This document shows positions 40,012-45,454 of a stretch of DNA of 64,000 nt, in pieces (position 1 is the first letter of the stretch; every line of letters begins with the position of its first letter). A program made the position numbers and the translations under genes. The notes beneath the pieces are model-generated. The model was not told the origin of the DNA. It saw only the letters and a program-made list of their open reading frames with translations, and made no database searches. Source of the DNA: Parasaccharibacter apium (GTDB taxonomy: Bacteria > Pseudomonadota > Alphaproteobacteria > Acetobacterales > Acetobacteraceae); contig NZ_MEJG01000001.1 in assembly GCF_002592045.1 (NCBI RefSeq), forward strand, positions 124,001-188,000, given 5' to 3'.

Positions 40012-41354
40012 CAGACCTCCTCACTCCCCTTCACGATGCTCTCACACGTGCGCGCCATCACGGAGCGGACCATGCTGATGCCCTCATTATGCGGAGCCAG
40101 AACCGCTCTGCTATAATTCGGCAAGGCAAGGCGGAGGGAATCCGTCATGCAGAGGGGCTCTCCCTCAGCTTGCGTGTCTTTCATCAAGGGCGTGTTGCCA
40201 GTGTGTCAGGCAATGACCTCACCACACACGCACTCGACCAGCTAGCCGAACGTGCTTGTGCGATGGCTCAAGCCGTTCCGCCCTCCCCAGAGGATGGATT
40301 AGCTGAGCATCCGCTCATCCCGCTCCCACAAGAGGCCATCACAAAGCTAGACCTCTTTGACTCCACACCCACACCAGAGATAGACGCCCTCCTCGCCACA
40401 GCGAAGGAAATGGAAGGTACGGCCCTCGCCCATAAAGGCATCACAAATAGTAGCGGGGCCGCAGCGAGTGCCAGCACGCATGACATCGCCCTTGCCACAA
40501 GCGCAGGTTTTGCGGGGCAGTATCAACGCAGTGGGCATAGCCGAAGCATCAGCGTTGTGGCAGGCACAGGTCCGCATATGCAGCGTGATTATGCCTTCCA
40601 TAACGCGGTGCATCAGGCCGATTTGCACAATCCGACTCACTTAGGGGATGAAGCAGCCCGTCATGCGTTGGCTCGTCTCAACCCTATCCGGCCTAAAACG
40701 GGCTTTTATCCCGTATTATTCGCCCCACGCGTCTCCGCCTCTCTCTTAGCGCATTTCGCCGCAGCTATTAATGGCGCGGCCATTGTACAAGAGGCCTCCT
40801 TTCTTAAAGATAAGCGCGGAGCGGCCCTTTTTCGTAAGGGCATCACCTTAACTGATGACCCAACCCTCCCTCGCCTTGCGGGGTCTCGCCCCTTTGATGG
40901 TGAAGGGAGCGCGACTCTTCCATTAAATCTTGTTGAGAATGGCCAACTCAACCACTGGTTGCTAGATAGCCGCTGCGCACGTAAGCTAGGCTTCCCTACA
41001 AGCAATGGGCGGGCTGTCCGCAGCGGAGGGAGTGTACGGCCGGGTCTTTCCACATTCTATCTCCATCCTGGAGACCATTCCCCCTCTGCGTTGCAATCTG
41101 ATATTAAAGAAGGCGTGTTACTGACAGAACTTATGGGCAATGCCATCAATATGCTCACTGGGGATTATAGCCGTGGTGGCTCTGGCTTTATGATTCGCAA
41201 TGGTGAGATTGCCGAGCCTGTCTCTGGCATTACCATTGCTGGCAATCTGCTTGAGATGTTTGCCCGCCTTATCCCGGCCAATGACCTCGACCTCATGGCT
41301 GGTTATCACGCCCCGACCATTCGTATCGACCATATGAGTCTTGCTGGAGACTAA
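40008..41354 (+). CDS. pmbA: TldD/PmbA-family protein (PmbA)
   Basis: The 448-aa protein belongs to the TldD/PmbA family of metalloprotease partners. In E. coli TldD and TldE/PmbA form a heterodimer that degrades unfolded peptides and matures microcin B17; PmbA lacks the zinc site. Family stretches include LSLRVFHQGRVASVSGNDL, the C-terminal LDSRCARKLGFPTSNGRAVR and GDYSRGGSGFMIRNGEI. No tldD lies in this window. It is coupled to the M16 peptidase gene by a 4-nt overlap, which suggests a shared role in peptide turnover. Confidence 0.9.
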   Translation: MTDLLTPLHDALTRARHHGADHADALIMRSQNRSAIIRQGKAEGIRHAEGLSLSLRVFHQGRVASVSGNDLTTHALDQLAERACAMAQAVPPSPEDGLAEHPLIPLPQEAITKLDLFDSTPTPEIDALLATAKEMEGTALAHKGITNSSGAAASASTHDIALATSAGFAGQYQRSGHSRSISVVAGTGPHMQRDYAFHNAVHQADLHNPTHLGDEAARHALARLNPIRPKTGFYPVLFAPRVSASLLAHFAAAINGAAIVQEASFLKDKRGAALFRKGITLTDDPTLPRLAGSRPFDGEGSATLPLNLVENGQLNHWLLDSRCARKLGFPTSNGRAVRSGGSVRPGLSTFYLHPGDHSPSALQSDIKEGVLLTELMGNAINMLTGDYSRGGSGFMIRNGEIAEPVSGITIAGNLLEMFARLIPANDLDLMAGYHAPTIRIDHMSLAGD

Positions 41355-41361
41355 CCCGATT

Positions 41362-42327
41362 ATGCGTATTCGTCTTATCCCTCTTGCCACAGCGGTGCTA
41401 TGCCTGCCGCTCTTTGCCCTCGCCCCTGCCGCTGAGGCCCGCGCTGGGATGGGCTCCTCCCTTGGCAGCCGTGGCTCCCGTACATGGAGCGCACCGCCTC
41501 GCACCAGCGTTACCCCTAGCTGGACACGGCCTATGGACCGTAGCATGACCCCACGCACCCCCTCTTACGGCACGGCAGAGCCTTCCATGGGCAGTGGCTT
41601 TAACCGTCCTGCTTTTGGTGGTGGGATGCGCCCTCCCTTTGCGGCACGTCATCCCTTCCTGACCAGCTTGGCCGGTGGCTTCTTAGGGGCTGGCCTTTTT
41701 GGAATGCTTAGCGGACATGGCTTCTTTGGGGGCTTTAGTGGTGGCGGTTCCTTCTTTGGCTTTATCTTCCAAGTACTGCTCGTTGCGCTGCTGATAAACT
41801 TCGTCATCAAATTATGGCGGCGATCCTCAAGCACGAATAATGGCCCTACAACGGGGTTTACGCCCGCTAATGGTGGGGCATCTCCCTTCCCCAACCAACC
41901 TCAGGCTGCACCAGCACAAGATGTTACCTTAACGCCAGAGGATTATCAGAGCTTCCAACAACTCTTGCTCAATGTCCAAGCAGCATGGAGCGCGCAGGAC
42001 ATGACCTCCCTGCAACGTATGGCCACGCCGGAGATGGTAAGTTACTTCAATAACCAACTCTCCGAGCTTACAAGCCGTGGGGCGCGCAATATTGTCTCTC
42101 AGGTACGTTTCATTCGTGGGGACCTCGCCGAGGCATGGCGGGAAGGCAACATCACTTACGCGAGCGTTGCTCTACAATATTCTGCCATTGATGTCACAAC
42201 CGATAATATGGGCACAGTGCTTGATGGTAGCAAAACCGAGCCACAAACTATTACAGAGCTTTGGACCTTCCTCCGGGCCGATGGGCGCGGTAATTGGATT
42301 CTCTCTGCCATCCAACAGGCAGGATAA
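41362..42327 (+). CDS. Tim44-like domain protein with signal peptide
   Basis: The 321-aa protein has an N-terminal signal or anchor (LIPLATAVLCLPLFALAPAAEA) and a Ser/Arg/Pro/Gly-rich low-complexity region to about residue 95. A glycine/phenylalanine-rich hydrophobic stretch follows (LTSLAGGFLGAGLFGMLSGHGFF and on), then a membrane segment near 135-150. The C-terminal Tim44-like domain runs from about residue 190, including YQSFQQLLLNVQAAWSAQD and ELWTFLRADGRGNWILSAIQ. This layout matches the common bacterial Tim44-like proteins; the function is unknown. The start is 41362, 7 bp after pmbA, and a terminator follows. Confidence 0.85.
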   Translation: MRIRLIPLATAVLCLPLFALAPAAEARAGMGSSLGSRGSRTWSAPPRTSVTPSWTRPMDRSMTPRTPSYGTAEPSMGSGFNRPAFGGGMRPPFAARHPFLTSLAGGFLGAGLFGMLSGHGFFGGFSGGGSFFGFIFQVLLVALLINFVIKLWRRSSSTNNGPTTGFTPANGGASPFPNQPQAAPAQDVTLTPEDYQSFQQLLLNVQAAWSAQDMTSLQRMATPEMVSYFNNQLSELTSRGARNIVSQVRFIRGDLAEAWREGNITYASVALQYSAIDVTTDNMGTVLDGSKTEPQTITELWTFLRADGRGNWILSAIQQAG

Positions 42328-42355
42328 TCTTACACCTGCTGAGCAATAGGTAAAG

Positions 42356-42401
42356 AAAACCCCGCATCCTGCCTGCGCTGGTGAGATGCGGGGTTTTTTA
42401 T
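42356..42401 (+). terminator. Rho-independent terminator after the Tim44-like gene
   Basis: An AACCCCGCATC / GATGCGGGGTT stem is followed by a TTTTTT tail and preceded by A-rich sequence. It may also serve the coxF-ctaB operon coming from the other side. Confidence 0.88.
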
Positions 42402-42420: not shown

Positions 42421-42531
42421 TTACAGCCGGTAAAGAGCTGCCACAAAAAGGGAAAGAGCAAAAAAGGACAAGCCAACAACAATGCCAAAAAGGCGGCCTT
42501 GCCGGCGGGGGGGCGTATTAAGATCGCTCAT
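42421..42531 (-). CDS. 36-aa membrane protein, CoxF-like
   Basis: A small open frame encodes a protein starting MSDLNTPPRRQGRLFG, with one membrane segment (IVVGLSFFALSLFVAALY, residues 17-34) and a short basic N-terminal tail. The ATG overlaps the ctaB stop by 4 nt (ATGA), which strongly supports translation. Its place right after ctaB and its N-in basic/TM layout match the tiny CoxF-type proteins of alphaproteobacterial cytochrome c oxidase operons, whose function is not well known. The name rests on position and topology. Confidence 0.6.
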   Translation of the reverse strand: MSDLNTPPRRQGRLFGIVVGLSFFALSLFVAALYRL

Positions 42532-43493
42532 GCCAGAAGAACCCTATCAATCAATAGACCACAAAATAGAAAAAAGAGATATGCCAGCGAGTAGCGAAAA
42601 GCATAGCGAGCTGGCATATCCTTTGTCAGGCTGTTACCCTTATCATCTTGCTTATCACAGAGAACGCGCAGCCCGTAATAGATAAAGCCGAGGTCTAACA
42701 GGCTGGTGCAAACTGTGTAAAACCAGCCACATTGACCCACCACACTCGGCACGAGCGAGACAAGGCTTAAAATCACAGTATAAATGACAATCTGCCAGCG
42801 CGTATGGCGTGCACCTTTTACGACTGGCAACATGGGGATGCCCGCACTCTCATAATCCTTACACGCATAAAGAGAGAGAGACCAAAAATGCGGCGGCGTC
42901 CATAAAAAGACAATCGCGAACATCACTACAGGCAACACATCTAGCGAGCCCATGCTCGCAGCCCAGCCTATCATGGGGGGGAAAGCCCCCGCCGCCCCAC
43001 CAATCACAATATTCTGCGGCGTGCTACGCTTAAGCCACATCGTATAAATCACGCCGTAAAAGAAGATGGAGAACGCCAAAATCCCCGCTGCGAGCAAGTT
43101 TGTCGCCAACCACAGCACCACAACCGACGCCACGGAGAGAATCACGGCATAAACCAGCGCGCTCGTCGGCTCTACACGCCCGCCTGGCACAGGGCGAACC
43201 TGCGTACGCTTCATAATCGCATCAATATCGCGGTCATACCACATATTGATGGCCCCAGCCGCCCCAGCCCCGATGCAAATACAAGCAATGATAACAAGAC
43301 CAACGGGGATAGACGGCCATTTAGGGGCCACAGCCATGCCTGCAAGCCCCGTAAATACAACCAGCGAAATCACCCGCGGTTTGAGCAAGGCGATCCAATC
43401 TTGCAAGGCGGCATCACCATTTTGCCCCTCTACACGCAACATAGCCATAAACCGCGTTAGTAGCGATGAGGATGGTGTGGATGATGCCTGCAT
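42528..43493 (-). CDS. ctaB: Protoheme IX farnesyltransferase (heme O synthase)
   Basis: The 321-aa membrane prenyltransferase of the UbiA family attaches farnesyl to heme B to give heme O, needed by bo3- or aa3-type oxidases. The first Asp-rich motif lies in NMWYDRDIDAIMKRT near residue 100; LKPRVISLVVFTGLAGM is the family N-terminus; the second motif region reads ACKDYESAGIPMLPVVKG. About nine hydrophobic segments are visible. The start MQASSTPSS at 43493 follows the upstream stop by 7 bp with AAGGG in front, and the frame back to 43538 lies inside the neighbouring gene. It sits between an oxidase-like gene and the CoxF-like gene. Confidence 0.95.
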   Translation of the reverse strand: MQASSTPSSSLLTRFMAMLRVEGQNGDAALQDWIALLKPRVISLVVFTGLAGMAVAPKWPSIPVGLVIIACICIGAGAAGAINMWYDRDIDAIMKRTQVRPVPGGRVEPTSALVYAVILSVASVVVLWLATNLLAAGILAFSIFFYGVIYTMWLKRSTPQNIVIGGAAGAFPPMIGWAASMGSLDVLPVVMFAIVFLWTPPHFWSLSLYACKDYESAGIPMLPVVKGARHTRWQIVIYTVILSLVSLVPSVVGQCGWFYTVCTSLLDLGFIYYGLRVLCDKQDDKGNSLTKDMPARYAFRYSLAYLFFLFCGLLIDRVLLA

Positions 43494-43500
43494 GATGCGA

Positions 43501-44730
43501 TTACCCTTTACACTCAAGCTCAGCTCCAATTTTGGCACGCGCCACCAACAAAGCGTACCAGAGCCGCCCTGCGACCAACCCGAACATGACCAGACTCGCC
43601 GCCATCAAGATAACCGCGGGGAGGGCAAGCTGCGGTATGACCGAGCAGACCGCCCCTATAAATGTCACAAAAGCATGGAGGGAGCCAAAAAAGGCCAGCC
43701 CTTTATTATGCTGAGCCACCCCCATAGAGCACCACGCATAAAATGCCGCGCCTAATGCCAATAAGCTACCAAACATAACTAATTGATGGCTCGCCGCGCC
43801 TGAAAGCCCAAAGGGGAGTGACTGCACATCCCCCAACACCATCAAAATCCAGCCCGCTAAAAGCAGCACCAAACCACCAGAGGCCCAGCTTGCCACAGGG
43901 CCGGATGGCAGACGCGCGCGCCACATATCAACTAGAAACGCTCCTAAAAGAGCCAAGCAGGGCATCGCGAGCCCCACCACAAGCCCGACCCTATACGCCG
44001 TAGAGGATAGCCCCCCAAATAGATGGTCCGCCCAGCATAAAACAGGCACAAGCCCCATCACCCCAAAAGCATAAGGGGCACATCGTGCGACCATGCCACG
44101 TTCCGCTTTGGCAGGGAGCAAGGCTGCAACAATAATCCCTAAAGAAGGAATGCTCAGCAAGCTCATCTCGACCCCACCATGCAGGACTGCCAGCAAAGCC
44201 GTTGCCCCACCACCCGCAAAGCCACTACGCACGAGGAAAGCCAAAAGAACCGGTGCTACGATGAGAACAGACAAAGCACTCCCCACAAAAGCCCAAATGA
44301 GGGGAGGAAACGCCCGAAAGGTGATAGAGCGCATCTCCAATATTGTGGCAAGAACATTGACGGCCAAAGCCAACATCCCCAAGGCCCAAAGAGCTAACCC
44401 CCCATAAGGCATAACAGGCAGCAAAAGCACACCGACAGCTAACAGCACAAACCCGGCGTGAGAGGCAGTGGGGAGGGCCATCCCCTCACCCTTTAAAAGC
44501 TTGGGGAGGAACCATTGCGCCATACCCCCCAACATCACAGGGCAGACGACATAAAGCGTCATCAACAACGCATGAGCCACCACAACACCAGCAGAGGGTT
44601 GCACATGGAGGAAAGGCAGCCCTAAGCTTCCCCCTAACATGCCCGCAAAAAATGCGAGCAAGAAGAACCTTCCCCCCTCACGATGTAGGGCGGTAGAATA
44701 TGTTTTCTGAAATAAAGGCCTTGTAGTCAC
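43501..44730 (-). CDS. Degenerate heme-copper oxidase subunit I-like membrane protein
   Basis: The 409-aa protein has about 12 hydrophobic segments and aligns by eye along its length with CtaD/CoxA. YSTALHREGG matches the NHKDIG region, AHALLMTLYVVCPVMLGG matches the segment with the low-spin heme His (His53 kept), and PPLIWAFVGSALSVLIVAPVLLA matches the pre-CuB segment. HGGVEMSLLSIPSLGII matches GHPEVY...LPGFGII with the CuB His and cross-linked Tyr lost. ADHLF replaces AHHMF, and ASHQLV replaces AHFHYV. It is shorter than CtaD (usually about 530 aa). With most metal and heme ligands gone it cannot be a normal oxidase. It heads the ctaB-coxF operon, so it looks like a repurposed or decaying operon remnant. 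Confidence 0.7.
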   Translation of the reverse strand: MTTRPLFQKTYSTALHREGGRFFLLAFFAGMLGGSLGLPFLHVQPSAGVVVAHALLMTLYVVCPVMLGGMAQWFLPKLLKGEGMALPTASHAGFVLLAVGVLLLPVMPYGGLALWALGMLALAVNVLATILEMRSITFRAFPPLIWAFVGSALSVLIVAPVLLAFLVRSGFAGGGATALLAVLHGGVEMSLLSIPSLGIIVAALLPAKAERGMVARCAPYAFGVMGLVPVLCWADHLFGGLSSTAYRVGLVVGLAMPCLALLGAFLVDMWRARLPSGPVASWASGGLVLLLAGWILMVLGDVQSLPFGLSGAASHQLVMFGSLLALGAAFYAWCSMGVAQHNKGLAFFGSLHAFVTFIGAVCSVIPQLALPAVILMAASLVMFGLVAGRLWYALLVARAKIGAELECKG

Positions 44731-44794: not shown

Positions 44795-45454
44795 TTATTC
44801 TTTAGACGCCTCTTGCGGCAATGTCACGAGGGTAAACAACCCCGCTGGGGGGACAGGTGTAACCGTCGCACGCGCTAAATCCTCCGGTGGTAGAAGTGAT
44901 TCAATCGCAAAATCAGGGTGCCACCCTAGCGCGCGCGAGGCCCGTGCCATCACACGCTCAACACGTAAGCGAATCCCCCTCTGCGCTAGGAAGTGGTTGA
45001 CAAATAGAATATGCCCTCCCGGCTTTACCACCCGTTTTAGCTCAGCCAAAAGGCGGTCGGGGTGCGGCACCACAGAGGCCACAAACATCCCTACAGCGAT
45101 GTCAAAACTATTATCAGCAAAGCTTGTTTGCTCTGCATCCATCACCAAAAGTTCATCAATATTACGCAGGCCATCGCGCTTTACGCGCTCCTTAGCTAAA
45201 GCCAGCATATCTTCTGAAAGATCGATTCCTGTAATGCGTTTTTCAGCCCGATAAGAGGGCAAAGCAAGCCCGGTACCAACCCCGACCTCCAGCACGCGCT
45301 CTCCTGGTAGGGCATTCACCGCAGCTACAGCCCGGCGTCGCCCAAAGGCTGAGACACCCCCAAAAACTTTGTCATACATATGCGCCCAACGACGATACGC
45401 CTCACGCACGCTATCTGCATCAAGAGAAGAACGAGGGTTAGGGGAAGACACCAT
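44795..45454 (-). CDS. Class I SAM methyltransferase, PmtA-like
   Basis: The 219-aa AdoMet-dependent methyltransferase has motif I VLEVGVGTGLALPSY near residue 55, the acidic loop ITGIDLSEDML, and post-motif segments VMDAEQTSFADNSFD and RVVKPGGHILFVNHF. The N-terminal YRRWAHMYDKVFGG and the tail of about 60 residues resemble phosphatidylethanolamine N-methyltransferases of the Rhodobacter/Acetobacter PmtA type, which make phosphatidylcholine. A UbiE-like role is the main alternative. It is monocistronic between the oxidase-like gene and a small membrane protein gene. Confidence 0.75.
   Translation of the reverse strand: MVSSPNPRSSLDADSVREAYRRWAHMYDKVFGGVSAFGRRRAVAAVNALPGERVLEVGVGTGLALPSYRAEKRITGIDLSEDMLALAKERVKRDGLRNIDELLVMDAEQTSFADNSFDIAVGMFVASVVPHPDRLLAELKRVVKPGGHILFVNHFLAQRGIRLRVERVMARASRALGWHPDFAIESLLPPEDLARATVTPVPPAGLFTLVTLPQEASKE

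Follow-up and report, generated by a model that had tools for sequence, protein, structure and literature searches.

The gene directly before ctaB in the window (the whole 64,000-nucleotide stretch of DNA analysed here) encodes, beyond doubt, a genuine homologue of the aa3-oxidase subunit I (COX1/CtaD), one in which the oxygen-reducing binuclear site is gone and both axial histidines of the low-spin heme are kept. Judged by its sequence, this CtaD-like protein probably functions as a protein with a single heme and is not mere debris, since the two histidines occur in all 69 versions compared and the gene nearly always lies beside a heme-making gene. The window genome belongs to Bombella, with 97% protein identity to B. 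saccharophila TMW 2.2558.

A COX1 homologue encoded directly before ctaB

A preliminary description of this DNA had taken the gene for an intact reading frame homologous to CtaD and placed it in an operon with ctaB and a CoxF-like gene, and on each of these points it holds (Table 1). Pfam and NCBIfam scans of the window protein itself returned no match, a failure that was overcome by profile searches. The proposed check against PF00115 accordingly fails for the window protein and succeeds for 50 of 66 family members. On its own, the window protein matches COX1 chains of the PDB with E 1.4e-10, and a profile of the 66 family members matches Paracoccus COX1 with E about 1e-71. An AlphaFold2 model made with the family alignment (mean pLDDT 90.3, pTM 0.90) was superposed with VIA-align on P. 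denitrificans and Rhodobacter COX1 at Z about 32 and 3.0–3.4 Å over ~365 residues (for 1ar1, Z 32 and 3.0 Å over 364 residues), and Foldseek likewise points to the COX1 fold. Similarity to COX1/CtaD extends over the full length by sequence, profile and structure, and we hold this evolutionary and structural identity to be very nearly certain.

Table 1. Positions in the window of the CtaD-like gene, its neighbours and the codons of its low-spin heme ligands
Feature	Position	Strand	Description	Evidence
CtaD-like pseudo-oxidase subunit I	43501..44730	-	409 aa, GTG start, COX1 fold	ORF, sequence, AF2 model
PmtA-like SAM methyltransferase (phospholipid N-methyltransferase-like)	44795..45454	-	conserved upstream neighbour	Methyltransf_11 3e-23
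ctaB, heme O synthase	42528..43493	-		TIGR01473 329 bits, over cut-off
CoxF-like 36-aa single-helix peptide	42421..42531	-	ATGA overlap with ctaB stop	sequence
Terminator-like GC hairpin and T run	42355..42393	-	3' of CoxF-like ORF	direct sequence reading
His53 codon	44572..44574	-	helix II low-spin heme ligand; P. denitrificans His94, bovine His61
His315 codon	43786..43788	-	helix X low-spin heme ligand; P. denitrificans His413, bovine His378

The protein shares its fold, and the low-spin heme histidines of helices II and X, with aa3 cytochrome c oxidase subunit I (1ar1, 1qle, 3om3), but it is without the CuB, heme a3 and Tyr280 residues, the K-channel Lys and the propionate Arg pair, and no CtaC, CtaE or CtaG gene adjoins it. 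The same fold is found in CyoB, the heme O-using subunit I of cytochrome bo3, which is encoded elsewhere in the window genome, belongs to a different subfamily and, unlike the CtaD-like protein, retains its ligand motifs.

The order methyltransferase, CtaD-like gene, ctaB, CoxF-like peptide is near-universal: at all 58 other loci the CtaD-like gene is preceded by a methyltransferase gene and followed directly by ctaB, on one strand, with a four-base ATGA overlap between the CtaD-like gene and ctaB at 41 of them, and a small CoxF-like ORF (judged by eye) follows ctaB at 57. PmtA is the best NCBIfam match of the window's methyltransferase, below cut-off. The ORFs after ctaB (window, L074–L131) encode single-helix peptides of 30–50 aa, R-rich at the start and hydrophobic towards the end; the window peptide has no match to Coa3_cc (PF09813), and the peptide beside a real COX1 (L132) matches Coa3_cc and mitochondrial COA3 weakly and below cut-off (E 0.025). 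An interface prediction treating the CtaD-like protein and CtaB as one chain was dropped, the two genes being in frame at only two of the 58 loci. Convergent with the ctaB operon, a Tim44-domain protein is encoded at 41341–42327 on the forward strand.

Catalytic ligands are lost and low-spin heme ligands kept

The main alignment comprised 68 CtaD-like proteins, 10 from the genus (window included) and 58 from other genera, with nine real COX1s as the comparison set for invariant columns and for the tree. Loss of the CuB and heme a3 motifs, noted for the window protein in the preliminary description, proved to be family-wide. The CuB ligand His276, the cross-linked Tyr280 and the K-channel Lys354 are retained in none of the 68, the high-spin heme a3 ligand His411 in two, and the other CuB ligands in 29 (His325) and nine (His326); the Arg473/474 positions that contact the propionates are deleted in every one, and the Arg that contacts the heme a formyl group is mostly absent. 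The WADH of the window keeps one His of the HH pair, which is not conserved among relatives.

What does not stand is the further claim that the AHFHY motif is wholly replaced and that only His53 and scattered histidines remain. The window reads AASHQLVMFG here, and both low-spin axial ligands are kept, not His53 alone, because the partner of His315 in the alignment is the second of the two histidines in AHFHY, the low-spin heme ligand, and because His315 stands at the same distance from the invariant Y331 (+16) and W333 (+18) as in real COX1. This bis-His pair is complete in 68 of 68 proteins, or 69 of 69 when L142 is counted (separate alignments). As measured against an A-family heme-copper oxidase subunit I, the window protein thus has the COX1 fold, the sequence homology and both low-spin histidines, and lacks the full CuB His trio as well as His411/Tyr280, Lys354 and Arg473/474.

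The pair stands out against the divergence of the family. Eight of the 265 columns that are invariant in the nine real COX1s are still invariant in the 68, both low-spin ligands among them, and the chance of finding both among eight random survivors is about 8e-4. In a separate alignment of 66 proteins, most of them 20–40% identical to the window protein, only G19, G33, H53, W146, W233, W282, H315, Y331 and W333 are invariant. It has been suggested that such a protein stabilises CtaB (PMC10715153), and it might be a heme-free scaffold that does only this, its histidines being kept for packing; the operon and the overlap with ctaB would fit, as would the loss of the other heme contacts. Yet a scaffold predicts no special retention of two histidines, which make up two of the nine invariant columns in the 66 proteins, the others being Gly, Trp and Tyr, and the CuB and heme a3 ligand positions have been free to vary. 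We therefore regard a heme-free scaffold as unlikely.

Heme and oxidase genes of the host genomes

The search for another ctaD and for cyoABCD that had been proposed turned up a single subunit I above the COX1 cut-off in the window genome, the bo3-type CyoB; the sole COX2-family protein adjoins cyoB, and no heme O synthase other than ctaB scores above its cut-off. No heme A synthase (CtaA) was found in Bombella, window genome included, and no Surf1 heme chaperone in 17 genomes, again including that of the window. The window genome's only cyoB (L001, G000:C1:118257-122603) lies about 3 kb before the window start as a 530-codon open frame that then continues in another frame, and the same-species genome G301 has a cyoB frame of 674 codons; the split is either an artefact of assembly or a true frameshift in the only heme-copper oxidase the genome has.

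All tested genomes that carry the CtaD-like gene also have a bo3-type subunit I. The gene is missing from G010 and from G085/G209, where the methyltransferase, ctaB and a bo3-type oxidase are present; these are real losses, in at least two genera, and so the CtaD-like protein is accessory and not essential for heme O synthesis. In six genomes that lack a true ctaB (G062, G148, G098, G102, G240, G066) there is neither a CtaD-like match nor a bo3-type subunit I, and the COX1-family match is either absent or long and divergent. In G062, G148 and G098 the match is a single divergent COX1-family protein of 785–833 codons (E about 1e-42) that might be a quinol nitric oxide reductase. That the pseudo-oxidase and another subunit I can exist side by side is shown by G411 (L113 region), where the degenerate CtaD-like gene occurs with a second COX1-family gene of 544 codons, a gene for a bo3-type subunit I and one for yet another, divergent COX1-family protein. 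The COX1-like search scored the best four candidates per genome at a threshold of E 1e-8, which is probably why G103/L142 escaped it: there was no match at that threshold, yet the CtaD-like gene is present with both histidines kept. At L137, L143, L144 and L147, likewise without a COX1-like match, the contig is broken or a different gene adjoins ctaB.

Electrons enter COX1 at low-spin heme a, and a protein retaining this site could serve as a one-heme electron carrier or a quinol- or cytochrome c-linked redox protein, for example a bc1–cytochrome c outlet or a sensor. Bovine His413, part of the proposed H-pathway, has its counterpart in 63 of the 68 proteins, and genes for bc1 and cytochrome c are present in Bombella intestini, in which no cytochrome c oxidase genes were found (PMC5112900). 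Such a role is nevertheless improbable: there is no CuA donor, because the only COX2-family protein of the window genome is the one next to cyoB, and there is neither a second redox centre nor a partner redox gene in the operon.

Phylogeny and selection

The CtaD-like gene was found in every Bombella genome searched, and a family-wide search yielded many further members, from which the 58 degenerate proteins of other genera were taken. In a maximum-likelihood tree (IQ-TREE) a branch with full support separates all 68 from the nine real COX1s, a result consistent with a single origin and a single loss of the catalytic site; long branches limit any further reading of the tree. In a quick FastTree with L142 added, as rooted there, the nine real COX1s do not form a single clade.

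Pairwise Nei–Gojobori estimates within Bombella give a median dN/dS of 0.108 for the CtaD-like gene (23 usable pairs), which indicates purifying selection. The medians for its operon neighbours are 0.027 (ctaB) and 0.049 (methyltransferase), two to four times lower, so constraint on the CtaD-like gene is weaker, though clear. Its intact frames and a dN/dS of about 0.11 tell us that the gene is not debris. A dead ctaD accumulating mutations while carried along with ctaB, as the deranged gene described for Acetobacter (PMC10715153, citing Matsutani 2014), the fast divergence and the outright loss in some genera might suggest, is very unlikely and already largely refuted by intact frames across a widespread and deeply diverged clade, by this dN/dS, and by a pattern of loss that spares the low-spin ligands.

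A possible one-heme partner of CtaB

Our best overall explanation, to which we give an even chance, is a one-heme pseudo-oxidase that works with CtaB in heme O/A handling for a bo3/ba3 oxidase; the structural part is strong, and the function we infer. On this view the gene descends directly from the ctaD of an ancestral aa3 oxidase cluster; the O2-reducing binuclear centre of CuB and heme a3 is gone, as are the Tyr280 cofactor and the K channel, and what selection has retained would be a one-heme membrane protein. From the ligand pattern the protein is likely to bind a low-spin heme, presumably a single one held by the bis-His pair, and in Bombella, where no heme A synthase turned up, that heme must be b or O; in genera with ctaA, heme A might occupy the site instead. 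With CtaB and the CoxF-like peptide as partners, the protein may receive or hold newly made heme O at the low-spin site, and may thereby stabilise CtaB or hand the heme on to the quinol oxidase.

Heme handling together with CtaB is a tentative assignment, somewhat short of evenly balanced, and a b/o-type protein in a hand-over complex with CtaB and the CoxF-like peptide, in which an assembly intermediate has become a dedicated heme chaperone for bo3/ba3, is in so specific a form rather doubtful. The proposal is consistent with CtaB as sole heme O synthase over cut-off and with the failure to find Surf1 in the window genome; against it we count the formyl-contact Arg, mostly gone, and the deleted propionate Arg pair. 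The earlier suggestion of a repurposed protein, in heme handling or as partner of CtaB, is favoured by the intact orthologues, the selection and the fixed operon, but the losses in G010 and G085/G209 make the partnership plausible rather than obligatory, and inheritance alone could account for the fixed operon. In holding or passing heme O/A beside CtaB, the protein would resemble CtaA/Cox15 and Surf1, heme-handling membrane partners of CtaB/COX1; those families are, however, unrelated to it, and neither was found in the window genome.

Relation to earlier accounts and implications

In the 2014 work of Matsutani, A. pasteurianus CtaB expressed in E. coli was reportedly functional as a heme O synthase, a point against the heme-handling proposal. 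That function is repeated in PMC6915089, and in A. pasteurianus ctaD (APT_01775) adjoins ctaB (APT_01774) (PMC5158111). The deranged gene itself is already known in Acetobacter: as PMC10715153 summarises Matsutani 2014, a COX1-like gene beside ctaB lacks all metal ligands. Its product holds the same position before ctaB and has lost the O2-reduction site as in the window, and the two almost certainly belong to the same orthologous family. The window genome likewise has a COX1 homologue directly before ctaB together with a bo3-type oxidase, but the published lack of all conserved metal-binding residues is contradicted here, because the low-spin bis-His pair is conserved family-wide. The selection and the CoxF-like third gene also go beyond the published Acetobacter account; in the accessible literature (Matsutani 2014 via PMC10715153) we found no account of the bis-His pair, of the selection, or of a widespread, fixed three-gene unit and the losses it has sometimes undergone.

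The published view of these proteins as devoid of every cofactor ligand is thereby corrected, for a family hosted by the bee-associated Bombella and by many other genera of acetic acid bacteria. To our knowledge, every characterised heme-copper oxidase subunit I carries the low-spin heme and the binuclear site together. A family without the binuclear site in which the low-spin heme pair is absolutely kept would mean that the two functions have been separated in nature, and the standing question of how heme O or A passes from CtaB into an oxidase subunit I may become testable in tractable acetic acid bacteria.
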